From positions 1 to 48,326 of the forward strand of contig CADCIB010000028.1 in assembly GCA_902801375.1 (NCBI GenBank): DNA of 48,326 bases. The letters run 5' to 3'. Below the pieces are notes generated by a model. The model saw nothing but the letters and a program-made list of their open reading frames with translations, was not told the DNA's origin and did no database searches. Source of the DNA: an uncultured Prevotellaceae bacterium. Its GTDB lineage: Bacteria; Bacteroidota; Bacteroidia; Bacteroidales; Bacteroidaceae. The position numbers and the translations under genes were made by a program. Shown here one piece after another: positions 6,567 to 40,206 of this stretch. Positions within the stretch are counted from its first letter, which is position 1; the number at the start of each line of letters is the position of its first letter.

Positions 6567-6575
6567 ATGGGACTT

Positions 6576-7421
6576 TCAATACAGAAATCCCAAGATCTCC
6601 CCCAATCTTTTCCTTGCTACGCGACGACCTATCTCATATGTCTGCCGCATACGCTGCCGGTCGTGGGAGATGCGGCCGATGGGGAGCACGTCATCGGGAC
6701 AGATGACGAGCGTTAAGCCCTTTATGGCCTCTTCTGCCACATAGCGCAGTTGTCTGTTATACATCTCGTGGCGTCGCGCCATGGCATCGGTCAGGTTGGG
6801 ATATTGCCGTAACATAACCCTTATGAAAGGCATCATCGGCATGGGCTTCTTTTCGTAACCTATCGGCTGGGTAAGCACCACTACATTCCTCTCATACCCT
6901 AACGACTGGAAATAGCGGAGAGGGATGGAGTCGGCTATACCACCATCGAGAAACTCCCGGCCTTCAATACGGACCGTCTTCGACACAATGGGCATCGACG
7001 AGGAGGCACGCAGCCATTCGTAGAGACTTGCCCCTCCGTGTTCTACTTGTTTGTAGAAGGCCTGCCCTGTCGTAACATCAGTAGCCACGAGATGAAACTC
7101 CATCGGATTGCGCTCGAAGGCCTCGTTGTCAAAGATGTCGAGCCTGTCAGCAATGGTATGGTAAGCAAATTCGGCACCGAAAAGATTACCTGTCGTCAGC
7201 CACGACCACAGGCTGCAATAGTGTCTGTCCTTGGCATACGCCAGATTATACCTCAGCGCGCGTCCGTTCTGCCAGCTCTTGAAATTGCAACCGAAGGCCG
7301 CTCCCGCTGAGACACCAATCATTCCGTCGAACGACACACCACTTTCCAGCAGCACGTCAAGCACGCCACAGGTGAATAGCCCTCGCATGGCTCCTCCTTC
7401 CAACACCAGTCCTGTCTTCAT
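6576..7421 (-). CDS. Patatin-like phospholipase family protein
   Basis: A 281-residue patatin-fold serine hydrolase (RssA/YjjU-like), expected to cleave acyl esters of phospholipids. The oxyanion loop GGAMRG is at 9-14, the nucleophile elbow GVSAG at 36-40 (Ser38), and the catalytic Asp in DGG at about 159, giving a complete Ser-Asp dyad. No signal peptide is seen, so it is probably cytoplasmic or membrane-associated. I start it at ATG 7421, which overlaps the stop of the upstream kinase-like gene as ATGA, implying translational coupling; a TTG 30 bases further up is in frame but inside that gene. The coupling suggests both act on envelope lipid. Confidence 0.9.
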   Translation of the reverse strand: MKTGLVLEGGAMRGLFTCGVLDVLLESGVSFDGMIGVSAGAAFGCNFKSWQNGRALRYNLAYAKDRHYCSLWSWLTTGNLFGAEFAYHTIADRLDIFDNEAFERNPMEFHLVATDVTTGQAFYKQVEHGGASLYEWLRASSSMPIVSKTVRIEGREFLDGGIADSIPLRYFQSLGYERNVVVLTQPIGYEKKPMPMMPFIRVMLRQYPNLTDAMARRHEMYNRQLRYVAEEAIKGLTLVICPDDVLPIGRISHDRQRMRQTYEIGRRVARKRLGEILGFLY

Positions 7422-7999
7422 CTCCGTGTTCTTTTGAAACAATAGTACCAACCATTGATTTTTATGCGGTTGATGTCAATCTGGGCGAAGTGGTAGCCAT
7501 CGTCACGCTTGTACACTAATGTATTATCGGGGTTGGAATCGGTAATAGTGATGCCCTTTTCCGCCAGTAGCCGACGAAACGCCGTATATCCTTTCGTCAG
7601 CATGTCGTGCTCGCGCGGCACCTTGACCAGTTTCCACATCCGTCGGAAGGGAATGTAAGGCAGATACTCCGAGATGAAATAACTGGTGTGGTAGAACCCC
7701 ATGCGATGAACCACAATATAAGCCACGGGGGGAGCCGTCTCAATACCCTGCCGCAACAGGTAATCGGCTTTCTCGTATGCTTGTTGTGCCTTGCTTTTCA
7801 AGATGGTAGAATAGAGCGCTTTCTTTATAAGAGGGACATTGACATATCTCTTCACAACAAAACTCTTCCCTCCGACGGAGATACGACCCACGAAATTGCG
7901 CCCGTCCTCATAAACCTGTTCATAGTTCACTTCGTCGCGTGGCACCTTGACGAGCATTTGTTCAAACTCGCCGAATGCTGGATTCATCTTTATTTGCAT
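7418..7999 (-). CDS. Lipopolysaccharide kinase-like (InaA/WaaP family) protein
   Basis: A 193-residue small kinase-fold protein resembling the Bacteroidales InaA/WaaP-type LPS kinases, which phosphorylate lipid A or inner-core sugar. A glycine-rich turn and lysine strand (ISVGGKSFVVKRY) are followed by IETAPPVAY and FISEYLPY. The catalytic loop reads ITDSNPDN: D154 and N159 fit the general-base Asp and metal-binding Asn, but the usual loop His is Ile. DINR follows in place of DFG. The start is uncertain: ATG 7999 or 7987 are best, since the -7 box at 8034-8041 places transcription start near 8027 and excludes the longer reading back to 8221. The stop overlaps the patatin start. Confidence 0.75.
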   Translation of the reverse strand: MQIKMNPAFGEFEQMLVKVPRDEVNYEQVYEDGRNFVGRISVGGKSFVVKRYVNVPLIKKALYSTILKSKAQQAYEKADYLLRQGIETAPPVAYIVVHRMGFYHTSYFISEYLPYIPFRRMWKLVKVPREHDMLTKGYTAFRRLLAEKGITITDSNPDNTLVYKRDDGYHFAQIDINRIKINGWYYCFKRTRR

Positions 8000-8033
8000 G
8001 TCCATTACCATTGTCATTCTGCCTATTTGGATG

Positions 8034-14070: not shown

Positions 14071-17000
14071 ATGAGAAGAGTAATCCAAACAATGGTTGCC
14101 ATAGCGGCGGTGTTGCTATGGACAACGCAGGCCTTTGCCGGAACCTGGACGGTTTATTCCGGCGGCGTCCGCTACCAGATTGATGGCGATAAGAATCAGG
14201 CCACCATCATGGGACTGCAATCTGGCTACGAGGACATCACCGAACTGGTGTTCCCGAGTTCGAAAGTGGCCGGTGGCGACAGCTACGACTACCCCATCAC
14301 GAAGGTGAATATCCAGGCCTTCTACACCTCGAAGCTGCAGAAAGTGGATATGTCGAAACTAACCTCGCTGCAGGAGTTCGACTACAATGTCTTCAGGAAC
14401 AGCAAAGACCTGAAGGAGGTCATTCTACCTGAGGGACTGACCAGCTTAGGTACCAGCACATTCGATGGCTGTTCGAGCTTAGAGGAAATCACGCTACCTT
14501 CGACGCTGAAGTCTATCGGGAGCTACGACTTCAAAGGTACGGCCATCACGGAGCTCACCATTCCTGCCAGCGTGACGTACGTGGGTCGTGAGATATTTGG
14601 CTTCTGGGACAACCTCCTGCGCATCAACATGGAGAACCCCGTGCCGCCCACGGGCTTCGACAAGGATGCCTTCTACGAGGCACTGCACCGCCGCCCTGAC
14701 CTGGCGCTGTTCGTGCCGGTCGGCTCGGTGGACGACTACCAAGCCAGCGAGTGGTGGAGTTCGCGCTTTACCAACATCAAGAGCGACGACCTGGGCGACG
14801 TGTTCAACTACGGACACTTCCGCTATGAGCTGAAAGAAAGCTCTGGTACGCGCTATGTGGACATCGTAGGCGTGGCCGACGACAACGGCACCGAGTACGA
14901 ATGGATGTTAGACATGGAAGGCGTGCAGTACAATGGGCGCATCTATCCCGTATGGAATGTACAGCCGGAATCCTGCAAGGACTACCGCTGGGCGGAACTC
15001 GACCTGAGCCGCAATATGTTCAAGGACCTGATGACAATCGGCAAGGAAGCCTTCTTTGGCAATACCACCATCACGAAAGTGAAGCTGGCCAACGACATCT
15101 GGTGGATTGGCGAGAGTGCCTTTGCATGGTGTTCTAACCTGGAGTCGGTAGATATGCCTTATTATCTTAAAACGATTGACTACGAGGCCTTCAGACGTTG
15201 TATCAACCTGAAGAGGGTGACGTTCGGTCCGAAACTCTTGAACATCAGGGAGCGTGCCTTCGATGACTGCTGGGAATTGAAGAGCGTATATCTGCCAGCC
15301 AATCTGCAGGAAGTGGGCTATCGCGCTTTCTCAAGTACAGGCCTCGAGTGGATAGTCTTGCCGCCCAACACGAAGATGTCCTACGAAAGCATGCTCGGAT
15401 GTAATAAGCTGAAATACATCTTCCCCATGTACAGCGACCCCACGGCCACCACTTCGGCCAAGAACATCTTCTTCATGAGCGATTCTCCCGGTACACTCGA
15501 TGCTACCGTCATTGTGCCGTCAGGCAAACTCAACGCCTACAAATCGTCAGACTGGGGTCAGGTGTTCAGCGACATACGCGACACGACCGTCGGACTGACC
15601 TTGGACAATGACACCGTCATCTACAGTCTCGATTCCAACATGCAGATGGTCGTATCGGGCGAATACATCGATACGGATATATCTCTTGGCCATGCCTCCA
15701 TCATCGGCCTGTCGCCCAATTGCGAGAATTTCGATGTTGAGATTCATGGTATGAGCGGAATAGGGTTCAAAGGTGCTCAGCAATTAGGTCCGTTGACCAT
15801 CTGGGCTACGAAAATTGGCAAGCGTGCCTTCAAGGACAACAAGCAGCTCAAAAGCTTTGATATCAGCGAAATGCCTTGGCTCGACATCGAGTATCAGGCC
15901 TTCGCCGGATGCAGCAACCTGACCAGCATCGGTGATGGCACTACAGTGACCTTTATCCGCGAAGAAGCTTTCATGGGTTCGGGCTTGGAGCAATTCACCT
16001 ACAATCACAACTTGCAGATTATCGGAAGTCGCGCCTTTGCCAACTGTCAGAAACTGAAGCGAGTGGACTATATCGATGATGGCTATGGAGGTGTCAGCAT
16101 CGGCAACAGTGCCTTTGAGAACTGCTCCGCCTTGGAGTGGCTCAGCATAGGCTCAACGGTGTATGAGATTGGCTACTCAGCCTTCGCCAACTGCACGGCT
16201 TTGAAACGTGTAACATCGGGCATCAATCCGCCCTATGCCATTGACGAAAGTGTCTTCGAAGGCATCGTGAAAGAGAGCGTTCCACTCTATGTGCCATACG
16301 GAACCGTCGACACTTATAAGACTACAGATGGTTGGAAGGACTTCTTCGGCAACAACATCAAGGACACCAACGATGGCGTGCAGATAGACGACGGCGTGTT
16401 CGTCTATGAGATTTACGATTCTGGGACTTCTCCCGACAACGATGCCGACATGGCCATGATTGTCGGCTTGTCGCCAGACATCTCGCAGAAGAAGGCTGTC
16501 ATGGACAAGCCCGCCATCACGTTGGATGGCCGCGACTATCCCGTGAACATGATCAACAGCTATGCCTTCCAGAACCTCGTGTTCGTGGACGAGATGGACT
16601 TCTGCGCCGCCGACCAAACATTGGAAGTGAGCTACCAAGCCTTCTATAACGCCAAGTCGCTGAAGCACATCAAGTTCAACGAGTCAGCCGGATGGACAAT
16701 GGGCTACGAAGCCTTCTCCGGTGCCACCAGTCTTGAGGACATCGTGGTCACCAGAGACGTGAGTCCCTATGCATTCTATGGATGCACCAAGCTGAAGAAC
16801 GTCAGCTTCACTTCAGATTGTTCATATATCGGTGACTACGCCTTTGACGGTTGCACCAGCCTGGAGGAAATCTCGCTGCTGAGTGCCACAGAGATGACCA
16901 TTTACTCCAATGCCTTCTCGAACAGCGGACTGAAGAAGCTCACCATCCCCGACTGCTACCCATTCTATATCCAAGGTTACGCATTCGAAGGCTCACAGCT

Positions 17001-17313
17001 CACCGAAGTCATCTCCTACATCGAGTGGCCCGAAGTCCTCGATGCCGATGCTTTCACGGGCATTCCCGCAGAGGCCACGCTTTCCGTACCCTACGAATCA
17101 CAGTACCAATATGAGTATCAGACTGGCTGGGACCACTTCTTCGGTCACATCGAGGAGCGTCCGTATGTACCCACGGGTGTGGAAAGTATCAACCATCAGC
17201 CGTCAGCCGTGCAAATCTATGATCAACAAGGCATTCGCCAGAACGAACTGAAGAAGGGTCTGAACATCGTCCGTCAGGCCGATGGCACCACTCGCAAGGT
17301 TGTGATGAAGTGA
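14071..17313 (+). CDS. BspA-like leucine-rich repeat surface protein (LRR_5 type)
   Basis: A 1080-residue secreted protein. A signal peptide (MRRVIQTMVAIAAVLLWTTQAFA, about 1-23) is followed by four blocks of LRR_5 repeats with the recurring pattern 'xAFxxCxxLxxVxxPxxLxxIGxxAF', for example FDGCSSLEEITLPSTLKSIG and FENCSALEWLSIGSTVYEIG. Blocks are separated by short strands ending in 'vPxGxxxxYxxxxxWxxxFxNI', the usual cap of each unit (about 215, 485, 755 and 1035). The last 40 residues carry IYDQQGI...KKGLNI...RKVVMK, a sorting-signal-like tail. Family members act in adhesion to host proteins; the ligand is unknown here. The stop lies inside a 76-bp tandem duplication. Confidence 0.9.
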   Translation: MRRVIQTMVAIAAVLLWTTQAFAGTWTVYSGGVRYQIDGDKNQATIMGLQSGYEDITELVFPSSKVAGGDSYDYPITKVNIQAFYTSKLQKVDMSKLTSLQEFDYNVFRNSKDLKEVILPEGLTSLGTSTFDGCSSLEEITLPSTLKSIGSYDFKGTAITELTIPASVTYVGREIFGFWDNLLRINMENPVPPTGFDKDAFYEALHRRPDLALFVPVGSVDDYQASEWWSSRFTNIKSDDLGDVFNYGHFRYELKESSGTRYVDIVGVADDNGTEYEWMLDMEGVQYNGRIYPVWNVQPESCKDYRWAELDLSRNMFKDLMTIGKEAFFGNTTITKVKLANDIWWIGESAFAWCSNLESVDMPYYLKTIDYEAFRRCINLKRVTFGPKLLNIRERAFDDCWELKSVYLPANLQEVGYRAFSSTGLEWIVLPPNTKMSYESMLGCNKLKYIFPMYSDPTATTSAKNIFFMSDSPGTLDATVIVPSGKLNAYKSSDWGQVFSDIRDTTVGLTLDNDTVIYSLDSNMQMVVSGEYIDTDISLGHASIIGLSPNCENFDVEIHGMSGIGFKGAQQLGPLTIWATKIGKRAFKDNKQLKSFDISEMPWLDIEYQAFAGCSNLTSIGDGTTVTFIREEAFMGSGLEQFTYNHNLQIIGSRAFANCQKLKRVDYIDDGYGGVSIGNSAFENCSALEWLSIGSTVYEIGYSAFANCTALKRVTSGINPPYAIDESVFEGIVKESVPLYVPYGTVDTYKTTDGWKDFFGNNIKDTNDGVQIDDGVFVYEIYDSGTSPDNDADMAMIVGLSPDISQKKAVMDKPAITLDGRDYPVNMINSYAFQNLVFVDEMDFCAADQTLEVSYQAFYNAKSLKHIKFNESAGWTMGYEAFSGATSLEDIVVTRDVSPYAFYGCTKLKNVSFTSDCSYIGDYAFDGCTSLEEISLLSATEMTIYSNAFSNSGLKKLTIPDCYPFYIQGYAFEGSQLTEVISYIEWPEVLDADAFTGIPAEATLSVPYESQYQYEYQTGWDHFFGHIEERPYVPTGVESINHQPSAVQIYDQQGIRQNELKKGLNIVRQADGTTRKVVMK

Positions 17314-17447
17314 GAGAAGAACTGAGCTTGCTCGAGTTCTTCCAAACGTGAACGAGCTCGAGCTTCAGCTCAAGGTCGTGATGAAGTGAGAGAAGAACTG
17401 AGCTTGCTCGAGCTCTTCCGAACGTGAACGAGCTCGAGCATCAACTC
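17296..17447 (+). repeat. 76-bp tandem duplication spanning a stop codon
   Basis: Two copies (17296-17371 and 17372-17447), differing at only a few bases. Copy 1 begins with the last codons of the LRR gene (KVVMK and stop) and continues into GAAGAACTGAGC / GCTCGAGTTCTTC, which form a hairpin. Because 76 is not a multiple of 3, copy 2 is out of frame. Confidence 0.9.
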
Positions 17448-17485
17448 AGAGCTAATATCAAATAACCATAATAAGCCAAGACAAT

Positions 17486-19951
17486 ATGAATAAGCTATTT
17501 AAGAACCTGCTATTTTTGCTTGTTGCGATGGCTGCGAGCATGAGGGTTTCAGCCGGCACTGCCACATCGTTTTACGCCAACTTCTACAACGGTGTGCTGA
17601 CGTTCTACCACGACTCACAATCTAATTCCCGTTCAGGTACGAACTATTTCTTTCTGGAGGATTGGCATAACTACGAATGGTTGACGGAACAGAAGACAAC
17701 CGTCACGAAAGTGGTGTTCGACAGTTCTTTCCATGACTACAAGGCATCGGACTGGTCGCACATGTTCTTTGGGCTGGAGAACCTGACCACGGTAGAGGGC
17801 ACGGAGAACCTTAACCTGAGCAAGGCGCAAGACATGACACAACTGTTTGACGGTTGCAAGAGCTTGACCACCATCAACGTAAGCAACATGGATATGAGCC
17901 ATGTGACCAATATTGAATACATGTTCCGCAATTGCCAGTCGTTGGAGTACTTAGACGTGAGCAACTGGAACGTGAGCAACATATTCACTATGCAGGGCTT
18001 GTTCGATGGTTGTTCGAAGCTGAAGAGAATAGATGTCAGCAAATGGAACGTCAGCAGCGTCATGACTATGGCTTACATGTTCCGGAATTGCATATTTACA
18101 GTCATAGATTTGGGCGACTGGAATACCTCCAGCGTTACGGATTCACAAAGTATGTTCTCTGGTTGTGAAAATCTTACGACAATCTATTGCGAGCATTCTT
18201 TCAGTACGGCGAGCATACTTTCCTCTCCTAACATGTTCCTCAATTGCTTCAACCTCGTGGGCGAAAGAGGTACGAAATACAACCCATCGTATGTCGACTT
18301 TACCTACGCCCGCATTGATGGAGGGACGGGAAATCCTGGCTACTTCACGTCAAGGTCGATTCCCATCGACGCAGCTCACTTCCCGGATGCCAACTTCCGG
18401 ATAGAATTGAAGGGAATGGAAATAGGTGAGGACAACAAACTGACTGTTGATGAGATATTTGATACGGAAGACTTGGATTTAGATTATACCGGAGAGATGG
18501 AAGACCTGACGGGCATAGGCTACTTCACTGAATTGGAATATTTGAATTTTAACTACAACAAGGTAAAGTATGCTGACCTGTCGAGAAATACAAAATTGAA
18601 AAGTATCTACTGCATCTGTAACGAACTCTATGACGAGACGATGGACTACCTCGTCGCCCATCTGCCCAAGGTCGGCAATGCCCGACTATATGTCTACGAC
18701 AGCTACCACGGAGCTTGGTTGGAACGAGAAGACCATAACGAGATGACACCCGAACAAGTGGCTGCTGCCAACCAGAAAGGCTGGACGGTGAAGGTGTGGG
18801 ATGAAAACATTGGCAATGAAGGTGAATGGAGTGAAACCCAGGGGTTCTGGCAGATCAACGAGGAGCGATTCCCTGACGAGAACTTCCGCCGCAACCTCCT
18901 TGAAAATGGGAACCTCCGCTGCATGGGCATTCTGACGAAAGAAGATGTCGAAGTTTGCAGTGAACTCGACCTGGGAGGTTGGGACATCAGCGACTTGACA
19001 GGCATCGAATACTTCTCTGCTTTGGAATATCTATACTTCACTCTGAACAATGTGAAAACTGCTGACCTGTCGCACAATACATCGCTTATTTATATCACGT
19101 GCCCCATTAACCAAATCAGCGGGGCCAACATGGACTTTTTCGTGAACCATCTGCCTTTCACAAACAATGGTATTATTCATGTCTACGACGGTAGCATTAG
19201 CAACTGGCCGGATGCCAACGAGATGACGCCCGAACAGGTGGCCATAGCCAACCAGAAGGGATGGAAGGTGAAGATATATGATGAAACCCAAGGATATCAT
19301 GGTGATTGGGCTGAAACCCAAGGGATTTGGCTCATCAGCGAGGAGCGATTCCCTGACGAGAACTTCCGCAGCTATCTGTCTTCACGGTATCCAATATGTA
19401 CGGGAGCCATCACCTATGAGGAAACGATGGAAGATGAAATGTTACCGTGCAATTCGGAAATAAGTGATCTTACGGGCATCGAACTCTTTATAGGCCTGGT
19501 TCATCTCGACTGTAGTTGTAACCGTCTTACCTCTCTTGACCTATCCGGCAATGAGAATCTTCGATGGGTTGACTGTAGCCAAAACCGGATTAAGGGCTCG
19601 GCCATGGATAACTTTATTGCCAGTTTATGCATCGTTCCAAGAGGTGAAGATGAGGGTCAGCTTCATATCCTAAATGATGCTGACAGCCATCATCCGGAAG
19701 GCAATGAGGTCACCGCAGCTCAGGTAGAGGCTGCCAAGAGAAGAGGATGGATTATGTATGCCTACGAAAAAGGCAATTGGGTAGAATATCATGGTCCCAC
19801 GCCGACAGGCATCACTTCATCCCCCATTGCCCAGCATCCTGCACCTATCTACGACCTGCAAGGTCGGCGCATCGACACCCGTCAGTCCTCGAATGGCACC
19901 TTGCGAAAAGGCGTCTACATCGAAGACGGCAAGAAGGTGTTGGTGAAGTAA
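17486..19951 (+). CDS. BspA-family leucine-rich repeat surface protein (DUF285-containing)
   Basis: An 821-residue secreted protein. Signal peptide at about 1-24 (LFLLVAMAASMRVSA). Residues about 65-265 are DUF285/BspA repeats of the pattern 'MFxxCxxLxxIDVSxWNVSxVxxM' (about six copies). Three longer modules follow, each opening with 'FPDxNFR' (about 296, 466 and 622), then an SDLTGIEYFxxLxxLxxxxNxxxxxDLSxNxxL leucine-rich core and a closing NEMTPEQVAxANQKGWxVK segment. The C-terminus (PIYDLQGRRI...LRKGVYIEDGKKVLVK) is a classic Prevotella-type sorting-like tail. It follows another BspA-like protein after 172 bases. Likely an adhesin; ligand unknown. Confidence 0.9.
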   Translation: MNKLFKNLLFLLVAMAASMRVSAGTATSFYANFYNGVLTFYHDSQSNSRSGTNYFFLEDWHNYEWLTEQKTTVTKVVFDSSFHDYKASDWSHMFFGLENLTTVEGTENLNLSKAQDMTQLFDGCKSLTTINVSNMDMSHVTNIEYMFRNCQSLEYLDVSNWNVSNIFTMQGLFDGCSKLKRIDVSKWNVSSVMTMAYMFRNCIFTVIDLGDWNTSSVTDSQSMFSGCENLTTIYCEHSFSTASILSSPNMFLNCFNLVGERGTKYNPSYVDFTYARIDGGTGNPGYFTSRSIPIDAAHFPDANFRIELKGMEIGEDNKLTVDEIFDTEDLDLDYTGEMEDLTGIGYFTELEYLNFNYNKVKYADLSRNTKLKSIYCICNELYDETMDYLVAHLPKVGNARLYVYDSYHGAWLEREDHNEMTPEQVAAANQKGWTVKVWDENIGNEGEWSETQGFWQINEERFPDENFRRNLLENGNLRCMGILTKEDVEVCSELDLGGWDISDLTGIEYFSALEYLYFTLNNVKTADLSHNTSLIYITCPINQISGANMDFFVNHLPFTNNGIIHVYDGSISNWPDANEMTPEQVAIANQKGWKVKIYDETQGYHGDWAETQGIWLISEERFPDENFRSYLSSRYPICTGAITYEETMEDEMLPCNSEISDLTGIELFIGLVHLDCSCNRLTSLDLSGNENLRWVDCSQNRIKGSAMDNFIASLCIVPRGEDEGQLHILNDADSHHPEGNEVTAAQVEAAKRRGWIMYAYEKGNWVEYHGPTPTGITSSPIAQHPAPIYDLQGRRIDTRQSSNGTLRKGVYIEDGKKVLVK

Positions 19952-28155: not shown

Positions 28156-28647
28156 AATTCTTTTGTTTTATGATGTTAGACTTCTGTTTGTTGAAACAGT
28201 TCACTTATATAACAGGTCTGAGCGGCAAAAGGTGACATCGTTGATAAAGTTTTTTCTAATTTTGATTTCTTTTGTTGCTACACAATACGAATAATTGCCG
28301 AACCATACAAACAATTGGGATGTTCTGCATGATTGAGTGATGCATATGCATTTTTTAAGCAATAAAATAGAAGTAGACCCGAAAAGGTTCGCAGGTGTAT
28401 GACCTCCCCTCGCCCCTCCTGCAGGAGGGGAACGATTTGTTATGACGCTCCTGTAGGAAGAGGACGATTTGTTGTGACCTCCTGTAGGAGGGGGACGATT
28501 TGTTGTGACACTCCTGCAGGAAGGAATGATTTGCCCCCCTCCTACAGGAGGGGTGAGGGGGAGGTCATGAAGGTCAAATGTTATATCATTGCCTCATGAA
28601 TTCTGCGCGACGCGAGCCATGGTTAGCAGGTTATTCCATAAAATTGC
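28156..28647. other. Intergenic region with a repeat element
   Basis: The 492 bases between the sigma operon start and the ADP-ribosylglycohydrolase stop hold no credible gene. The part from 28156 to about 28300 is AT-rich and would contain the sigma-operon promoter. From 28399 to 28568 lies the inverted-repeat element described separately. Confidence 0.7.
28399..28568. repeat. 170-bp element with terminal inverted repeats and internal tandem units
   Basis: The left end ATGACCTCCCCTCGCCCCTC continues into CTGCAGGAGGGG. The right end, read in reverse, is nearly the same (ATGACCTCCCCCTCACCCCT then CCTGTAGGAGGGG), giving about 32-bp terminal inverted repeats. Inside, units of about 30-34 bp repeat as CTCCTGTAGGA...ACGATTTGTTGTGAC, each with its own small palindrome CTCCTG(C/T)AGGA. 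It encodes no protein and is MITE-like in structure. Confidence 0.8.
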
Positions 28648-31293: not shown

Positions 31294-33414
31294 ATGAAGA
31301 AAAAGTTTTTCGTTTCCATCCTCATGATGTTGGCCGTGGCTGGTGCCAAGGCCGATGAGGGCATGTGGACCCTGATGAACCTGCCGCAGGCTGTCTACGA
31401 GCAGATGGTGGCAGAAGGGTTCTCGCTGAGCTACGACGACCTGTACAAGTCGCCTGATGCCATCAAGAACTATGTCGTGAACTTCTCGGGCTATTGCTCG
31501 GGTGTGGTGGTGTCGCCCAACGGACTGGTGTTCACCAACCATCATTGCGGCTTCGAGAGCATTCGCAGCCATTCCACCGTCGAGCACGACTACATGCTCA
31601 ACGGCTTCTTTGCCAAGAGCTATGAAGAGGAGTTGCCCAACAAGGACATGTTCGTGGCTTTCATGCGTGAGGAGATTGATGTCACGCCGAAACTCATGGC
31701 TTTGGGCATCGACGACATGGAACGCATGGATGCCGAGGTGCTGATTGACTCCCTGGAGCAGGCCATGAACGACTCAGTGAAGAAGATTGACAAGACGCTC
31801 TCCGTGGAGATCAAGCCTTTCTACGAGCGCAATGCCTATTATGCCACTGTCAATCAGATCTTTGGCGACCTGCGCTTGGTGTTCGCCATCCCCAAGTCGA
31901 TGGGTAAGTTCGGTGGTGAGACCGACAACTGGATGTGGCCGCGCCAGACGTGCGACTTCTCCGTGTTCCGTATCTATGCCGACCCTGAGACTAATGGCCC
32001 GGCCGAGTACAGCGAGCGCAACGTGCCTTATCACCCCGCCTCATGGGCACCTGTCTCCATGCAGGGCTACAAGGATGGCGACTTCTCCATGACCCTCGGC
32101 TATCCCGGCAGCACCAGCCGTTATCTCTCGTCGTTTGGCATCCGTGAGATGCGCGATGCTGAAAACAGTACGCGCGTGCAGGTGCGCGGTGTAAAACAAG
32201 AGGTGATGAAGCGCCACATGGATGCATCCGAGGCCGTGCGCATCAAATATGACTCGAAATACGCTCAGAGCTCCAACTACTGGAAGAACTCCATGGGCAT
32301 GAACAAGTGTATCGACTCCATCGGCATCATCCGCCACAAGGAAGAGACCGAGGCCAAGATTCGCAAGTTCCAGCAAGAGACAGGATTCCTGAAGGACAAG
32401 CTCAACCTCGACAAGATGAAGGAGTGCTACGCTCAGCGCTTTGATGCCGACCGTGCGTGGATGTATTTCACAGAAACCTTCTGGCGCACCAACGAACTGA
32501 CCTCGCGCGCGCTGGCTGCCAATATGGGCATGGTGGAGTTGAAAGGTCCGGAAGACAATCTGAAGAAGCAGTATTTTGAGTTCCCCGACAATAGCGAGGA
32601 GTGGGACGAAGCCCTCGATAAGGAGGTGCTCGCCGTCTTGCTGAAGAACTACCGCGAGCATGTCGATGCCAAGTACCTGCCCGAATTTTTCCAGACCATC
32701 GACCGTAAGTTCAAGGGCAACTACAAAGCCTACGTCGACCACCTCTTCAAGAAGTCTCTCCTCATGAAGAAGGGTGCCAAGATCTATCCCGCCAAGAAGA
32801 GCTTCCAGAAAGATCTCGGCGTACAGATGGGTATCGACCTGGCCACACTGATGGGTCAACTCCGTGGCGAGATGAGCGAGAGCAGCGTGGAGATCGACAA
32901 GCAAGAGAAGTATCTCTGTGCCGCCAAACTGCGCATGGAGGAAGACCTGCCGCACTACAGCGATGCCAACTTCTCGATGCGCATGAGCTACGGACAGGTG
33001 AAGGAGTATCTCCTGGGCGGCAAGCCCTCGGGATGGTACACCACCGCTGAGAGCCTCTTGGAGAAGATGAAGCGCGTCAACGAGAACGAGGAATACTTCG
33101 CTGAGCCCATCATGCACGAGCTCTTCTCGCAGAAAGATTATGGCAAGTACACTGACCCACGCACTGGCAAGTTCCAGCTCTGCTTCCTCACCACCAACGA
33201 CATCACGGGTGGTAACTCCGGTTCGCCAATGTTCAACGGCAAGGGAGAACTCATCGGACTGGCCTTTGACGGCAACTGGGACAGCCTCTCGAGCGACATC
33301 AACTTCGACAGCCGCCTGGCACGCTGCATCGGCGTGGACATCCGCTACGTGCTGTTCATGATGGATCAGTGGGGACATGCCGACCGCCTCATCCGCGAAA
33401 TTAGCCCCCGTTAA
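31294..33414 (+). CDS. S46-family dipeptidyl-peptidase (DPP7-like)
   Basis: A 706-residue secreted serine exopeptidase that removes dipeptides from peptide N-termini in the periplasm. Signal peptide at about 1-20 (FFVSILMMLAVAGAKA). The chymotrypsin-fold His region is GLVFTNHHCGFESIR (His84), the Asp region is TDNWMWPRQTCDFSVFRIYAD (about 210-230) and the nucleophile is Ser642 in GGNSGSP. Eighteen residues after Ser642 is Gly in FDGNW. In the family Gly at this place marks DPP7 (hydrophobic P1), while Arg marks DPP11 (Asp/Glu). Length is standard. It follows the flippase after 16 bases and may share its transcript. Confidence 0.93.
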   Translation: MKKKFFVSILMMLAVAGAKADEGMWTLMNLPQAVYEQMVAEGFSLSYDDLYKSPDAIKNYVVNFSGYCSGVVVSPNGLVFTNHHCGFESIRSHSTVEHDYMLNGFFAKSYEEELPNKDMFVAFMREEIDVTPKLMALGIDDMERMDAEVLIDSLEQAMNDSVKKIDKTLSVEIKPFYERNAYYATVNQIFGDLRLVFAIPKSMGKFGGETDNWMWPRQTCDFSVFRIYADPETNGPAEYSERNVPYHPASWAPVSMQGYKDGDFSMTLGYPGSTSRYLSSFGIREMRDAENSTRVQVRGVKQEVMKRHMDASEAVRIKYDSKYAQSSNYWKNSMGMNKCIDSIGIIRHKEETEAKIRKFQQETGFLKDKLNLDKMKECYAQRFDADRAWMYFTETFWRTNELTSRALAANMGMVELKGPEDNLKKQYFEFPDNSEEWDEALDKEVLAVLLKNYREHVDAKYLPEFFQTIDRKFKGNYKAYVDHLFKKSLLMKKGAKIYPAKKSFQKDLGVQMGIDLATLMGQLRGEMSESSVEIDKQEKYLCAAKLRMEEDLPHYSDANFSMRMSYGQVKEYLLGGKPSGWYTTAESLLEKMKRVNENEEYFAEPIMHELFSQKDYGKYTDPRTGKFQLCFLTTNDITGGNSGSPMFNGKGELIGLAFDGNWDSLSSDINFDSRLARCIGVDIRYVLFMMDQWGHADRLIREISPR

Positions 33415-33732: not shown

Positions 33733-36700
33733 ATGAAAAAACTGACTTTCATGTTTGTTATGTTACTCATGGCTGTGGTTTCTTTTGCTCAGGAAGTTAC
33801 CCTTCCCGAGGGCTTAACTACAGAGGAGTATGAGTTTACTGCTACGAAACTCGCTTCGGGCTTCGGTCTCGATGAAGAGGTTTCCCGCACGGTGAACGTT
33901 GCCTTCGATGGCAATGATGTCTACGTGCAAGGTCTTAGCAATAACGAAACCTATGCTTCCAGTTGGGTGAAGGGTGTCGTCAATGGCGATCAGATCACCT
34001 TCGAGAAGGAGCAGGAACTGTATGTGCTGGATCTGGGATTCCTGTTGATTAAAGGCGTATTCAATCCCAACAGCGATGTTGTGTTTGCTTACGACGCAGC
34101 CAACAACAAGATGACTGCCGACGCTTACGAGATTAGCGAAGACAACGGAGAAGGCTACCACGCTATTGAGCAGTATGCCAACGTCGTGATTGCCAAGGCT
34201 GGCGGCGAGACTCCCGTTGATGAGCCCACGGTGGTGACTCTCCCCGAGGGCGTAACCGCTGTTGACTATCAGATGACAGCTACTACGCTGAAGAACTACA
34301 ACCGTGTCGATGTGAACCGCACCGTAAAGGTGGCCGTCGACGGTACTGACGTATACATGCAGGGTTTGGCAGAGTGTCTGCCCGAGGCTTGGGTAAAGGG
34401 TATGCTTGGTGGCGACGAGGTTGTGTTTGAGGGCAGCCAGCTCTTAGGCGACAACGATGGTTTCGATGCTATGTTCGAACCCGACCACGAGCACATTGCT
34501 TTCACTTACGATGCAGCAGCTGACAAGTACACCATCAGCGCTTATGAACTGCAGGCTAAGTCTGACACTTGGGAACTGTACGAAAGTGTTGTGATTACAA
34601 AGGCCAACGGCGGCGATGAGCCGGGCGACGATCCCATTGAGCCGCAGGGCGACTTCACCATCAGCCCAGAAGGTGTGCAGCAGACTAGCCTCAGTACATT
34701 CGTCATCACCTTCAACAACTACACGGTGAAGTCATTCATGGGCGAGGCTACGGCTACACTGACAAACACAACCACAGAGAACATACAGACGGTTGCTGTG
34801 GAAGTGAGTGAAGATGGCAAGACTGCCACGATGAACTTCGAAGAGACCACCGAACCGGGTAAGTACACGCTGCAAGTGGTTGATCTCTGCACAGAAAACT
34901 ATAAGTTCCTTGACGATGAACTGGTATTCAACTATGAGATTGCTGGATTCGAGGAACCCATCGAATGGACCGCTACTCCGGAAGCCGGTGAGGTTGAGAA
35001 GATTGAGGTCGTAACCATCAACTTCAACAAGATGCTGGAAGTGGCCGATGGCACTCAGGCTTATCTGTTCAAGGGCGAAGAGGAGCTCCAGGCCAAGGAC
35101 ATCACGCTTACTGGTGGCGACAAGGCCGTGTATGTGGCATTCGACGAAGTGACCGAAGCTGGTGAATATCAGGTGGTCATTCCTGAAGGCATCAGCACCA
35201 TTGCTGGTGAGGCCGTTCCCGAAATCGCCATCAACTACACCATCGCCGGTTCTGAGCTTCAGGACGACTATACCATCAGCCCCGAGGGCGTACAGCAGAC
35301 CAGCCTCAGCACATTCGTTGTGACCTTCAATAACTTTGGCGTTTCCACGCTGGGATCTGAGGAGAATGCTACACTGAAGAACAACACCACAGGTGTCGAG
35401 CAGACTGCTGTCATGGAGATCAGCGAAGACAAGAAGGTGGTCACCATGAACTTCGAGGAAACCACCGAGCCGGGTAAGTACACCCTGACTCTGGGCGACC
35501 TCTGGAATGCTTCTACTTACCAAGTGCTCGATCCCATTACTGCCAATTATGAGATTGCAGGTGCCGTTGAGCAGCTGACATGGACCGCTACTCCGGAAGC
35601 CGGAGAGGTTGAGAAGATTGAGATCGTTACCGTTAGCTTCAACAAGATGGTGGAAGTGGCCGATGGCACTCAGGCCTATTTGTTCAAGGGCGAAGAGGAA
35701 CTCCAGGCCAAGGACATCACTCTTACTGGTGGCGACAAGGCTGTGTTTGTAGCATTCGACGAGGTGACTGAGGCTGGCGAATACCAGGTGGTCATTCCTG
35801 AGGGCATCAACACCCTCGAGGGTGAGGCTGTTCCTGAAATCGCTATCAACTACACCATCGTTGGTGAGGCTCCCGAACTGGCTTGTGAAATTGATCCCGC
35901 AGCAGGCGAGGTGACCAGCATCAAGGACTTCACACTGACCTTCAACGGTGAGGTTGGTCTTGACGCTTACGAGGCTCAGGCCGTTCTGACTGGTGGAAAC
36001 CTCGAGGAAGCAGTGAAGGCTCCCCTGGCCATCAGCGAAGACCACAAAGTGGTGACCTTCTCGTTCGACGAAATCACAGAGGCCGGTGAGTACACACTCA
36101 CTATCCCCGAAGGTGCTATCTTCAACCGCGCAACCTTCGAAGATGTAGCAGAAATGACCTTCAACTACACCATCGTTGGTGGTGAAGACGATCCCACTCA
36201 GCCTGTGGTTGTTCCCGCAACAGCTACTATCGAGGACTGGACACTCGAAGGTTCTCTCTATGCTTCCAGCGGCATTCAGACTCTGAATCAGGGTACAAAG
36301 GTTGCTTTCGAAGGTGAGAACATCTACATTCAGGGTCTCTGCCAGTATCTGCCCGAGGCTTGGGTGAAGGGTACGTTCGCCGACGGCAAGGCTGTTCTGA
36401 AGTCAGGTCAGATTTATGGCACCCTTGAGGAAGGTGGCGAAACCTATGAGTTATATATGATGGGTGCTAATGCTGATAGCGAAGGCAATCTGACATTAGT
36501 CGATGAGTTCGTTTTGAACTACGATGCCGATGCAGAGAAGTTCACCCTTGAGGACGGTGTCTATATCCTTGACAACAGCAATAATACAACTCCGAGTTTC
36601 TACGACCTGTTCATGTCTCTCGTCCTGACTAAGGGCAAGTACGTAGCTCCTGAGGTGGTGGAACTTCCCGAGGGTGCTGTGGTGGAAGATTGGCAGTATG

Positions 36701-37605
36701 AAGCCTACGACAACTACTATCAGGAAACTGTCACACGTCCTTCACAGGTGGCATTCGTTGGCAATGAGGTCTATGTGAATGGTATTACTGAAGTTCTGCC
36801 CGAAGCTTGGATCAAGGGTACGCTCGACGGTGACAAGGTAACCTTTGCTGCCAACCAGTATCTGGGCCACTACGAGAGCAGCTATGGTAGCCTCGACTTG
36901 TTCTTCAACCCCGAAGCCGACGTGGTATTCGGCTATGATGCTGAGGCAGGCAAGCTCACCGCTGCTGAGTACGTGACATTCACGGGTTCCTACAATTACG
37001 ATGAGATGTCAGATGTTGTCATCACAAAGGTTCCTGAGGCTGCAGCTGTTCCGGCTATTCCCACCATCAACGAGGTTGAGATTGCCACCTATTCGTACAT
37101 GGGTGCTACCATCCCCGCAACAAGTGTCGATGGCGAGCCTCTTGCAGCCAGCAAGCTGTACTACATGATTCTCGTTGAGAAGGCAAAAGACCAGAGCGAA
37201 CCGTTCGTTCTGAAAGCAGAGAATTATACTCCTTATGAAGAGGATATGACCGAGATTCCTTACATGTTCAACGATGCTGAAAATTATTACATCCAGGCTT
37301 ATGGCGACGTGCACTACGTATACCTGCTGACCGATGCTGAGGAAATCGACACTTGGTACAGACTGGGTGTGAAGAGCATTTACTACGGTGGTGGTGAGGT
37401 CAACGAGTCTGAAATTGCTTGGTACACCATCAAGGAATATCCCACTTCCGTTACGGGTATCAGCGAGATTGCCGCTGAGGATGAAGGCTCTGTCTACTAC
37501 GACGCTATGGGTCGCCGCACCAACAGCCAGGCTAAGGGTCTGCTCTTGAAGCAGGTTCGCATGGCCGACGGCTCGGTGAAGACCGTGAAGATTGCCCGCA
37601 AGTAA
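33733..37605 (+). CDS. Large secreted repeat protein: 'VYIQGL' modules and Ig-like domains
   Basis: A 1290-residue secreted protein I do not recognise as a named family. Signal peptide at about 1-19 (MKKLTFMFVMLLMAVVSFA). Four modules of about 130 residues share 'xVAFxGxxVYxQGLxxxLPEAWVKGxxxGDxVxFxxxQxLG': around residues 53-95 and 195-240, then 860-905 and 1005-1055. Between them (about 308-815) are five Ig-like domains of about 100 residues; the first four form a duplicated pair (TISPEGVQQTSLSTF type, then TATPEAGEVEKIE type). A final domain (about 1115-1255) leads to a tail YYDAMGRRTNSQAKG...KTVKIARK. The architecture suggests a cell-surface binding protein; the ligand is unknown. Confidence 0.85.
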   Translation: MKKLTFMFVMLLMAVVSFAQEVTLPEGLTTEEYEFTATKLASGFGLDEEVSRTVNVAFDGNDVYVQGLSNNETYASSWVKGVVNGDQITFEKEQELYVLDLGFLLIKGVFNPNSDVVFAYDAANNKMTADAYEISEDNGEGYHAIEQYANVVIAKAGGETPVDEPTVVTLPEGVTAVDYQMTATTLKNYNRVDVNRTVKVAVDGTDVYMQGLAECLPEAWVKGMLGGDEVVFEGSQLLGDNDGFDAMFEPDHEHIAFTYDAAADKYTISAYELQAKSDTWELYESVVITKANGGDEPGDDPIEPQGDFTISPEGVQQTSLSTFVITFNNYTVKSFMGEATATLTNTTTENIQTVAVEVSEDGKTATMNFEETTEPGKYTLQVVDLCTENYKFLDDELVFNYEIAGFEEPIEWTATPEAGEVEKIEVVTINFNKMLEVADGTQAYLFKGEEELQAKDITLTGGDKAVYVAFDEVTEAGEYQVVIPEGISTIAGEAVPEIAINYTIAGSELQDDYTISPEGVQQTSLSTFVVTFNNFGVSTLGSEENATLKNNTTGVEQTAVMEISEDKKVVTMNFEETTEPGKYTLTLGDLWNASTYQVLDPITANYEIAGAVEQLTWTATPEAGEVEKIEIVTVSFNKMVEVADGTQAYLFKGEEELQAKDITLTGGDKAVFVAFDEVTEAGEYQVVIPEGINTLEGEAVPEIAINYTIVGEAPELACEIDPAAGEVTSIKDFTLTFNGEVGLDAYEAQAVLTGGNLEEAVKAPLAISEDHKVVTFSFDEITEAGEYTLTIPEGAIFNRATFEDVAEMTFNYTIVGGEDDPTQPVVVPATATIEDWTLEGSLYASSGIQTLNQGTKVAFEGENIYIQGLCQYLPEAWVKGTFADGKAVLKSGQIYGTLEEGGETYELYMMGANADSEGNLTLVDEFVLNYDADAEKFTLEDGVYILDNSNNTTPSFYDLFMSLVLTKGKYVAPEVVELPEGAVVEDWQYEAYDNYYQETVTRPSQVAFVGNEVYVNGITEVLPEAWIKGTLDGDKVTFAANQYLGHYESSYGSLDLFFNPEADVVFGYDAEAGKLTAAEYVTFTGSYNYDEMSDVVITKVPEAAAVPAIPTINEVEIATYSYMGATIPATSVDGEPLAASKLYYMILVEKAKDQSEPFVLKAENYTPYEEDMTEIPYMFNDAENYYIQAYGDVHYVYLLTDAEEIDTWYRLGVKSIYYGGGEVNESEIAWYTIKEYPTSVTGISEIAAEDEGSVYYDAMGRRTNSQAKGLLLKQVRMADGSVKTVKIARK
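34654..35860 (+). repeat. Tandem ~612-bp duplication inside the Ig-like region
   Basis: Two head-to-tail copies (about 34654-35265 and 35266-35860), each encoding two Ig-like domains. The second half of each copy is nearly identical at DNA level over the stretch coding for EVADGTQAYLFKGEEELQAK and onward. Confidence 0.85.
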
Positions 37606-37628
37606 GTAAATCCTAATCATACAATGTG

Positions 37629-37671
37629 TCTCCCCCACGCTGCCAAAAGCTCCGTGGGGGAGATTCTTTTT
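37629..37671 (+). terminator. Terminator of the 1290-residue protein gene
   Basis: TCTCCCCCACG (37629-37639) pairs with CGTGGGGGAGA (37653-37663), followed by TTCTTTTT. Confidence 0.85.
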
Positions 37672-37760
37672 GGACTAACTTTATACTGTCGGCCCCAAAT
37701 GCCGGCCTCACCTGGGTGGTGTCAGCTATCAATATGCGGCAAACTGCAACCGTAGGTTAA

Positions 37761-37826
37761 TAATCTACGCTGCCTACATTATTAACCTACGCTGCCTACA
37801 TTATTAATCTACGCTGCCTACATTAA
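37761..37826 (+). repeat. Three tandem 22-bp repeats
   Basis: Contiguous copies at 37761, 37783 and 37805, with core CTACGCTGCCTACATTA, differing at one or two bases. A reversed partial copy (CGTAGGTTAA, 37751-37760) precedes them. Confidence 0.88.
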
Positions 37827-37944
37827 TAACATAGCATTGGGATTCAACTTGTTTTACCAGCCGAAACGACATCGGAGAGCCTCGGACAGATCACACCTGA
37901 GAAAATCGCCGATACACGAAAAGCGCATCTTTTTCTCGCTTTTT

Positions 37945-37976
37945 CTTGCGCCTCTCCGTGATTTTGCTTATCTTTG
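37945..37976 (+). promoter_or_regulatory. Promoter of the second module protein
   Basis: CTTG (37945-37948, one mismatch to TTTG), 20-base spacer, TATCTTTG (37969-37976), 40 bases before ATG 38017. Confidence 0.7.
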
Positions 37977-38016
37977 CACCGTGACTTAATCACTAATTCA
38001 TCAAATCAAAAGACCA

Positions 38017-40206
38017 ATGAAAACAATCCTCTCTATCTGTCTGTCGCTTCTGACAATGGCTTCCATAGGTGCACAGACCTCAGAAAGCCCAGTAGGGGCG
38101 GCGCAACATGTCCGCCAGCAGACAAGCGAAACGGTGCTTCCGCCCGCTGACCTTTGGACAGATGTGTTCACGATGGACTATTCCCTTTCCGATGTTTCCG
38201 GGGAGAGCCATGGCCAGTCGCTTGTCAATGTTGGCATCTACGATGGCTATTGCGACCTATACAAGCACATTTACAGTGGCACCATCTATATGCAGGGCCT
38301 CTGCCCGCAGTTGCCCGAAGCTTGGGTGAAGGCAGCAATTGCCAACGAGATTCTTGAGTATGGCGTGATGCCAGGTTCCATAGAAGTTTACGCCCAACTG
38401 AAAATCAGCCTGCCGCAATATCTTGGTCATGATGAACAGCAGGGCGACCTATATCTGACGGCTTTCGACCCAACCACAGGCGAATCGCTCAGCGAGGTGG
38501 ATATGGAGTACCGCCCGTTCTATAATACCATCAACAATCTCTCGGCACCCCTCTGCATTGGCAATTCCCCCACAGAGAAATCCAGTATCATGGAATATAC
38601 CTCCCTGTCGCTGCAATTCGACGTCAAGATCATTGAAGACAGTCCGGCGGGTACGGAGTTCGTTTATAGCCGCAGTGGCGGTGTGGTGAAGGAAGTGGAA
38701 AAGCTGCCTGGCAACGAGGACAACCCTTACGAAATCACTTACGCCACACAAACCGGCACCATCAACATTGTCTTTGGTGCCGACAACAAAGTGTATCTTC
38801 AGCAGCCCATTTCAGAGATGACCTATTATAGCGGTTGGGTGGAAGGGACGCTGAGTGAGGACGGGAAAACCATCACCGTACCCACAGGCCAGTACCTCAG
38901 CTATACGCGAAGCTTCAACATGGGTGTACAGATGTGGATGTGTCGCTATGATGAGTCGTTGCAAAGTTTCGTGGCCGACCGTTCCATCCAGGAAGTCACC
39001 TATACCATAGACAATGGCGAGATACGGCTGAACGGCTCATCCACAACCTGTGGCTTGGGGTGCGTGAACCGTGCATTCGGACTGGTGTACACCTATCTGA
39101 ATGGCGAATGGCTTCAGACTTGCGACTATGAGTCGGTCTATGCCCCCTTCGACGAGGAGCCGTTGGAAGCCCCCGACGACCTGCTGACCGATACCTACCA
39201 CCTGACCACTTGTTACTTTATCGCTGAATGGAGCCCCTTGGATGTCGACGTAGAGATAGGCTTCAACGGCGACGAAGTGTGGCTCAAAGGCATCTGCCAG
39301 TATCTGCCCGATGCTTGGATTAAGGGCTGGCGCGATGGTGACAAGCTGGTGTTCCCCTCTGAACAGTATCTGGGCTCCGCATCTGGCGTGCCCGTTTATT
39401 TTAAAGATGTGAGATTGGAAAACGGTAATACCGTCGTGAAAGACATGGAATTGATTTTCGACGGCACCGACACCTATACCACAACCGACTATATCTTCAT
39501 TGTCACGGCTAAGGGAACGCTCGAGTACCTGAACTACTACATGGGTGCCACCATCTCTAAGCACACCGACGAACTGGTGGAAGTCCCAGAGGGTATCACC
39601 ACTTCATTCTATACTTTCTCTTACGAGACCGTGCTCGACGAAGAGGGCACCCGGGTGGAAACTCACCATCGTGTGCACATAGGCTACGACGGCAACGATG
39701 TATACATCCGTGGCCTATGGGAAGGATTGCCCGATGCCTGGGTGAAAGGCACGCTTACGGCCGACAATCTCTTGGTGCTCAGCCTGCCGCAATACATGGG
39801 TGTCTATACGGATGAGTATCTCGGCGCCTATCCCATCTACCTGACCGCATTCGATGAGCAGACAGGCGAACTGCTTCCCGAATTGACATTTTGCTACAAA
39901 CGCTACGGCTCCAATGAAGGCACCGTTCGCTTCGACCAGCCCTCGCTCCCCATCAGCATCGGTATCTGCAAAACAGGCTACTTGGGTCTGCAGGATTTCT
40001 ACGAGCAGGTGATTGCCAACGGCGAACCCACGGGAATTGGAAACAACTACCAATATGCAACCACCAATACCCATTCCGCGCTCTATGATCTTCAGGGGCG
40101 TAGGGTTGCCAGTGGCACTTCGCTTGTCAACAGCGGTCCTTGTCAGAAGGGTGTGCGCATCATGCGCATGGATGATGGTGCAGTACGCAAGGTGATGGTG
40201 AAGTAA
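38017..40206 (+). CDS. Secreted 'VYIQGL' module protein
   Basis: A 729-residue secreted protein of unrecognised family. Signal peptide at about 1-19 (MKTILSICLSLLTMASIGA). Four copies of the module found in the preceding 1290-residue protein make up nearly all of it: GTIYMQGLCPQLPEAWVKA (about 88), NKVYLQQPISEMTYYSGWVEG (diverged, about 257), DEVWLKGICQYLPDAWIKG (about 418) and NDVYIRGLWEGLPDAWVKG (about 562). Each is followed by a QYLG/QYMG strand. It ends with ALYDLQGRRV...KGVRIMRMDDGAVRKVMVK, a sorting-like tail. The Ig-like domains of the neighbour are absent. The two genes appear to be paralogues, each with its own promoter. Confidence 0.85.
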   Translation: MKTILSICLSLLTMASIGAQTSESPVGAAQHVRQQTSETVLPPADLWTDVFTMDYSLSDVSGESHGQSLVNVGIYDGYCDLYKHIYSGTIYMQGLCPQLPEAWVKAAIANEILEYGVMPGSIEVYAQLKISLPQYLGHDEQQGDLYLTAFDPTTGESLSEVDMEYRPFYNTINNLSAPLCIGNSPTEKSSIMEYTSLSLQFDVKIIEDSPAGTEFVYSRSGGVVKEVEKLPGNEDNPYEITYATQTGTINIVFGADNKVYLQQPISEMTYYSGWVEGTLSEDGKTITVPTGQYLSYTRSFNMGVQMWMCRYDESLQSFVADRSIQEVTYTIDNGEIRLNGSSTTCGLGCVNRAFGLVYTYLNGEWLQTCDYESVYAPFDEEPLEAPDDLLTDTYHLTTCYFIAEWSPLDVDVEIGFNGDEVWLKGICQYLPDAWIKGWRDGDKLVFPSEQYLGSASGVPVYFKDVRLENGNTVVKDMELIFDGTDTYTTTDYIFIVTAKGTLEYLNYYMGATISKHTDELVEVPEGITTSFYTFSYETVLDEEGTRVETHHRVHIGYDGNDVYIRGLWEGLPDAWVKGTLTADNLLVLSLPQYMGVYTDEYLGAYPIYLTAFDEQTGELLPELTFCYKRYGSNEGTVRFDQPSLPISIGICKTGYLGLQDFYEQVIANGEPTGIGNNYQYATTNTHSALYDLQGRRVASGTSLVNSGPCQKGVRIMRMDDGAVRKVMVK

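Follow-up and report, generated by a model that had tools for sequence, protein, structure and literature searches.

The 48,326-nucleotide (nt) stretch analysed here (hereafter the window) comprises positions 1 to 48,326 of contig CADCIB010000028.1 from an uncultured Prevotellaceae bacterium (assembly GCA_902801375.1). A first-pass annotation of its letters had pointed to an unrecognised module repeated in two neighbouring secreted proteins. The two open reading frames (ORFs) were confirmed at 33733–37605 (protein A, 1290 amino acids) and 38017–40206 (protein B, 729 amino acids), with four module copies in each. The module is very probably a beta domain acting outside the cell. The features of both proteins are as follows, with bit scores from the external profile described below.

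33733..37605 (+): protein A, ORF of 1290 amino acids; signal peptide, two modules, immunoglobulin (Ig)-like array, two modules, fibronectin type III (FN3)-like domain, sorting-like tail
33733..33789 (+): signal peptide of A, residues 1–19; putative cleavage before Gln (between SFA and Q)
33793..34215 (+): A module copy 1, 113.8 bits; without LPEA, reads ASSWVKG
34231..34617 (+): A module copy 2, 118.6 bits; AlphaFold2 model m297a703557f3, predicted local distance difference test (pLDDT) 93.4
34654..36192, ends approximate (+): Ig-like array of A, between the module pairs; Big_5 (PF13205) / CelD_N (PF02927) matches
36211..36651 (+): A module copy 3, 132.2 bits
36655..37050 (+): A module copy 4, 130.2 bits; within AlphaFold2 model m523926f3056d, pLDDT 95.1
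37042..37431 (+): companion domain of A, FN3 fold
37456..37602 (+): C-terminal sorting-like tail of A, YYDAMGRR...KGLLLKQ...K; no TIGR04183 match at an expect value (E) of 1
38017..40206 (+): protein B, 729 amino acids; signal peptide, four modules, sorting-like tail
38017..38073 (+): signal peptide of B, residues 1–19; putative cleavage before Gln (between IGA and Q)
38128..38640 (+): B module copy 1, 47.2 bits; carries insertions; WVKA
38647..39129 (+): B module copy 2, 53.8 bits; divergent, with Glu for Lys (YSGWVEG)
39151..39579 (+): B module copy 3, 112.2 bits
39571..40017 (+): B module copy 4, 96.2 bits
40033..40203 (+): C-terminal sorting-like tail of B, ALYDLQGRRV...KGVRIM...K; included in the pooled tail profile; no TIGR04183 match at E 1

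An external profile, made without any row of the window from 195 modules found at other loci, recognised all eight copies at scores of 47–132 bits; the best scores of a shuffle control (500 per copy) were 5.9–10.7 bits. When the window copies alone were used in a leave-one-out search, seven of the eight were recovered. B copy 2 reached 13.5 bits, the top of 999 shuffles being 13.6, and is therefore recognisable only via relatives. The signature originally printed for the module proved idealised: LP[E/D]AW[V/I]K is present in six copies and missing from A copy 1 and B copy 2, and the only invariant columns of the eight-row alignment are the Trp and one Gln. The proposed length of about 130 residues was borne out, the copies spanning 127–171 residues depending on insertions and the choice of ends. 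All four A copies have their closest counterpart at another locus, not among their sister copies, and the nearest relatives of B copies 2, 3 and 4 are successive copies of one protein at locus L073. As judged from these sequence relationships, the module duplications are therefore probably old. Two module genes also adjoin at L073 (3288–6392 with four modules and 6408–8021 with three), the second being co-linear with B copies 2–4, so that the paired arrangement recurs in another species. The Ig-like array of A was also repetitive: two 615-base-pair (bp) units (34638–35867) contain stretches 82–86% identical in DNA, with 86% identity of 300-nt stretches at a spacing of 615, and represent a tandem duplication inside the gene.

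Searches of Pfam, NCBIfam and PDB sequences gave no family for the module, in line with the initial view that no named domain with this signature was known. In the Pfam scan of A and B, the curated cut-off was exceeded only by Ig-like domains in the central part of A, and B gave nothing below E 0.2. NCBIfam yielded no family for the module and nothing for B; a CopC match in the Ig-like part of A (325–381) remained far under its cut-off (32 vs. 95 bits). When 130 modules were compared with these libraries, at most one member matched any family (best E 0.0015 in NCBIfam and 0.0049 in Pfam). Only weak matches were obtained in PHROGs (best E 0.0022), and PDB sequences searched against A, B and two profiles gave nothing better than E 0.49. 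The Pfam family Lipase_bact_N was matched by 5 of 96 sequences consisting of module and FN3-type companion (best E 1.6e-4) and by none of 130 isolated modules at E 0.01, indicating that this match probably sits in the companion domain. Two families were rejected as remote kin: Calycin_like (PF13944), a calycin-like barrel by name that is present in the genus of the window, gave a probability of 0.2 when 15 of its members in related genomes were compared by hhalign (positive control, 99.6), and Lipid_bd (PF12888; BT_2261 of Bacteroides) had 0.1 against four members. No account of the module was found in the open literature, judged by titles and the starts of abstracts, and a search for "AWVKG" anywhere in the text of open papers returned two unrelated papers. 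As far as the libraries searched show, the module most likely constitutes a new, unnamed domain family.

AlphaFold2 predicted the module confidently as a ten-strand meander (pLDDT 93–95 in the two models listed above), which agreed with the compact all-beta fold guessed initially. Among the Foldseek matches listed, the nearest solved folds were small up-and-down beta-barrels, without demonstrated kinship, and the module itself is most likely a barrel of this kind. Among viral structures, the best Foldseek match was p58 of Myxococcus phage Mx8 (E 1.9e-4, probability 1.00, template modelling (TM) score 0.47).

The alignment of 130 modules, with columns numbered from residue 167 of A, revealed a small set of strongly conserved residues: Tyr42 (0.97), Lys56 (0.96), Trp54 (0.95), Gln70 (0.94) and Gln44 (0.85), together with glycines at positions 38, 45, 57 and 73 (0.90–0.97). 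In A copy 2, the patch residues are Tyr208, Trp220, Lys222 and Gln236. Strand pairing was deduced from the turns joining strands 2 and 3, 4 and 5, and 5 and 6, and two sets of positions were picked from this pairing, not blindly. One side (positions 32, 34, 36, 41, 43, 55, 57, 59, 64, 66, 71 and 73) had a mean hydropathy of +2.44 and the other (33, 35, 37, 40, 42, 44, 54, 56, 58, 63, 65, 67, 70 and 72) of −1.39; strand 6 agreed less well with the two-sided pattern, position 72 being hydrophobic. Because nothing else in the model packs against the outside of the barrel, its core is most likely formed by the hydrophobic side and an outer patch by the conserved set. By strand pairing, the conserved residues would thus sit on the outer face rather than in the lumen. 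As an alternative, the barrel could be a lipocalin- or avidin-like carrier whose cargo, a small molecule or peptide, sits in the lumen at the end that the conserved GLxxYLPEAW loop closes. This is very unlikely; a polar lumen is at odds with the hydropathy pattern.

The patch residues were further counted by what follows the module, using 280 of 285 module hits (five were left out for poor coverage). Trp was kept in 94/108 modules before another module, 98/100 before the FN3-type companion, 65/72 otherwise and 13/13 sole modules. The corresponding counts were 102/108, 94/100, 58/72 and 12/13 for Lys and 97/108, 85/100, 65/72 and 10/13 for Gln70. A role of the patch as contact to one fixed neighbour is not favoured, as its conservation in every context counted, whatever follows and also in sole modules, argues against it. 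Lys was missing in a minority of modules (26/280). Four of these have Val in its place and have also lost the Gln, and a divergent subtype that includes B copy 2 has Glu there.

The architecture of relatives was analysed in loci L031–L127 and the window, some of which are one contig fetched twice and hence not all independent. These loci contained 284 modules in 105 ORFs, with 1–6 modules per ORF. A companion domain, whose fold was found to be an FN3 beta-sandwich, occurred in 82 of the 105 module ORFs, often behind a module and never without one; it is present in A and absent from B. By simple text patterns, 70 of the 105 ORFs begin like a signal peptide with AQ at its end, and the tail pattern occurs in 90, some ORFs being cut by contig ends. 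In 81 full-length relatives, Pfam identified Cleaved_Adhesin (10), Dockerin (2), Big_5 (2) and Flg_new_2 (2), with single cases of a C10 peptidase, Big_2, a BspA-type leucine-rich repeat and others. Four paralogues of the own genome were scanned as well: one contained CBM26 and X25, one Cleaved_Adhesin and CARDB, and the remaining two an Omp28-like stretch below the cut-off and no match, respectively. The partner domains of the module are of extracellular kinds. In the own-genome paralogue at L031 (1969–4464), X25 and the starch-binding CBM26 precede two modules, and a run of unknown bases lies inside.

This architecture bears on the main rival explanation, in which the modules are structural, rigid stalk beads that hold the Ig array, an adhesin or an enzyme off the cell, have no ligand of their own and conserve their residues as determinants of the fold. 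The varying number of modules per ORF and their position next to FN3-fold and Ig-like domains, which are common spacers, would be in keeping with such a role, and conservation of Gly and Trp can be structural. However, conserved Lys56, Gln70 and Tyr42 opposite the hydrophobic face exceed the apparent needs of a spacer, the sole modules retain Trp (13/13) and Lys (12/13), and B consists almost wholly of modules. A pure spacer role appears somewhat unlikely.

A signal peptide can be read from the sequence of both proteins, as initially annotated, and the putative sites in A and B agree with the Q-rule of Bacteroidetes: according to PMC5837995, cleavage exposing Gln is the rule for most signal peptidase I substrates in this group. 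The annotated sorting-like tails were supported in part, in that the pooled tails of module proteins resemble those of the type IX secretion system (T9SS) by profile (hhalign probability 94, E 1.4e-7 against 15 T9SS tails of the genome). A column-shuffle control of the pooled profile gave 20 values (one a repeat), all ≤0.3. TIGR04183 missed the tails of A and B though the pooled profile matched, and the claim was therefore kept at "T9SS-like". The own genome encodes the T9SS sortase (NF033707, 945 bits) and SprA, both over the cut-off, and has 55 TIGR04183 matches up to E 1, 23 of them over the cut-off; the same loose search in control genomes gave matches in 13 of 14, over the cut-off in one. 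SprA was present in 45/45 module-bearing vs. 25/35 module-lacking genomes (Fisher p 1.1e-4; seven module-bearing genomes of other families were left out). The ten SprA-less genomes fall in nine genera, most of them without a module-bearing genome in the sample. Taken together, the SprA pattern and the tail profile indicate that T9SS export of module proteins is likely, with a link of moderate strength.

The own genome contained 19 module matches in 9 ORFs, or 22 modules with a wider profile. The module was detected in 7 of 40 genomes in a sample of relatives (E 1e-3) and was patchy in the own family (40/301 genomes, E 1e-6). It was rare in the order sample (9/393, E 1e-5), two of the nine being the own genome and its genus, and in the phylum sample it was confined to the own genome (1/395, E 1e-5), which was counted in every sample. 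In many genomes these searches score only part of the first-look candidates (e.g., 10 of 40 in genome G000), so that match counts, and perhaps genome counts, are lower bounds. A pattern scan of one genome per species across 84,980 species returned 260 matches, 183 of which encode relatives; 80 were kept. By their titles, the kept records belong to Bacteroidales-type organisms or, in one case, to an uncultured bacterium, and at least 25 of the 80 titles mention a ruminant as host or a compartment of the foregut.

An S46 peptidase gene (31294–33414) directly precedes A, and another upstream gene matches a polysaccharide biosynthesis family. Downstream of B are genes for a serine dehydratase alpha chain and a DsbD-like protein. 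Ten relatives possess the dehydratase gene, and in the four that were checked DsbD adjoins it in three and A, B and the S46 gene lie beside it in none. On account of this absence, A and B look like accessory genes. Flanking genes of module ORFs were collected as the nearest gene of 150–1500 amino acids per side in loci L048–L117, later loci and some others having been dropped by a size limit. A conserved operon partner was not seen among the 117 genes obtained, considering the best 25 of 101 families. Within the same 25 families, M6 (3), S46 (2), C10 (2) and C69 (2) peptidases were present. These genes, the S46 gene next to A and the one C10 peptidase that carries a module would suit a part in protein foraging, in which the modules bind peptides or proteins, or present them, close to peptidases at the surface. 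However, the flanking peptidase figures are raw counts, and the four relatives checked have no S46 gene, A or B beside the dehydratase gene; such a function seems highly improbable.

Several other repeats and a further surface-type protein were observed in the window. The gap between A and B contains a 22-nt tandem repeat (37757–37830; unit TTAATAACCTACGCTGCCTACA, 3.4 copies, 90% matches), which lies about 190 bp before B and whose core occurs nowhere else in the window with up to three mismatches. A 76-bp unit is present twice at 17295–17448 (93% matches); it overlaps the end of the ORF at 14071–17313 but lies mostly beyond it. At 28415–28533, where no ORF of at least 150 amino acids was listed, a 31-bp unit (CCTCCTGCAGGAGGGGAACGATTTGTTGTGA) occurs in 3.8 copies (83% matches). 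The 821-residue protein encoded at 17486–19951 has DUF285 and leucine-rich repeat matches and is another surface-type protein.

We consider it a nearly even proposition (probability about 0.48) that the module is an exported surface domain which binds an extracellular ligand via the conserved Tyr/Trp/Lys/Gln face. This reading starts from what has been demonstrated, namely the eight copies, the family, its predicted fold, the FN3-fold companion and the T9SS genes in the genomes, from which we infer binding and a ligand. In this mechanism, the barrel would have a hydrophobic core, and a patch of Tyr/Gln, Trp/Lys/Thr and Gln on strands 3–6 would face outward. The conserved loop that precedes the Trp and the variable loops located at the same end could join this patch in binding an extracellular polymer, glycan or protein. 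Tandem copies would provide avid binding at the surface, with Ig and FN3 domains serving as spacers. In this way, the module may help Prevotella-like gut-type bacteria hold something outside the cell.

A number of observations weigh against ligand binding by an exported module. The inward or outward assignment of residues rests on strand pairing and hydropathy, and a structural role would explain the conserved Trp, Tyr and Gly equally well. The conservation of Gln44 is only moderate (83/108 before a module, 83/100 before FN3, 43/72 otherwise and 8/13 in sole modules). No polysaccharide-utilisation gene was found among the scanned neighbours of A and B, and no neighbour family was recurrent, the most frequent among the best 25 of 101 families (DUF4302, Ribosomal_L13) reaching 5 of 117 flanking genes. 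As to export, the tails of A and B were not among the TIGR04183 matches up to E 1, and most of the SprA contrast lies between genera, the figures within module-holding genera being 45/45 vs. 21/23 (p 0.11). A more far-reaching proposal is distinctly unlikely: that the modules form a new extracellular binding family, mainly of gut and rumen Bacteroidales, with the ligand site on the outer barrel wall, that they constitute a T9SS tandem surface-capture system separate from SusCD loci, and that the Glu-for-Lys subtype has a different specificity.

The surface proteins of abundant gut and rumen Bacteroidales decide attachment and digestion, and many of their domains are unnamed. With hundreds of occurrences in the fetched loci, a confident predicted fold and clear boundaries, the module is ready for domain databases, and its conserved Tyr/Trp/Lys/Gln set offers direct targets for binding tests.

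Among known systems, the best Foldseek match in the PDB was the C-terminal barrel of NHBA (probability 1.00, E 3.6e-3, TM score 0.52), with 11% identity, nothing at E 0.001 or better and no PDB match by sequence profile. Like the barrel predicted for the module, those of NHBA, TbpB, HpuA and fHbp are small beta-barrels of surface proteins. These four are lipoproteins of Neisseria and its kin, unlike the T9SS-type module proteins. A precedent for the proposed binding is provided by the hypothetical domain Cel5A_C, which belongs to a T9SS cellulase from the rumen and binds Avicel (PMC5831590). Cel5A_C is an accessory domain without a name, carried by a T9SS protein from a rumen bacterium, as the module would be; in contrast, A and B are without a catalytic partner, and the likeness is one of description. 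From the T9SS multidomain surface proteins of Bacteroidetes with type A tails (TIGR04183), A and B differ in that their tails are missed by TIGR04183 and in that the module corresponds to no described domain in the libraries searched. With these proteins they have in common the signal peptide and the YDxxGRR...G.xI...K tail, and the module proteins share with them the T9SS genes and the Cleaved_Adhesin, Ig and FN3-fold companions.

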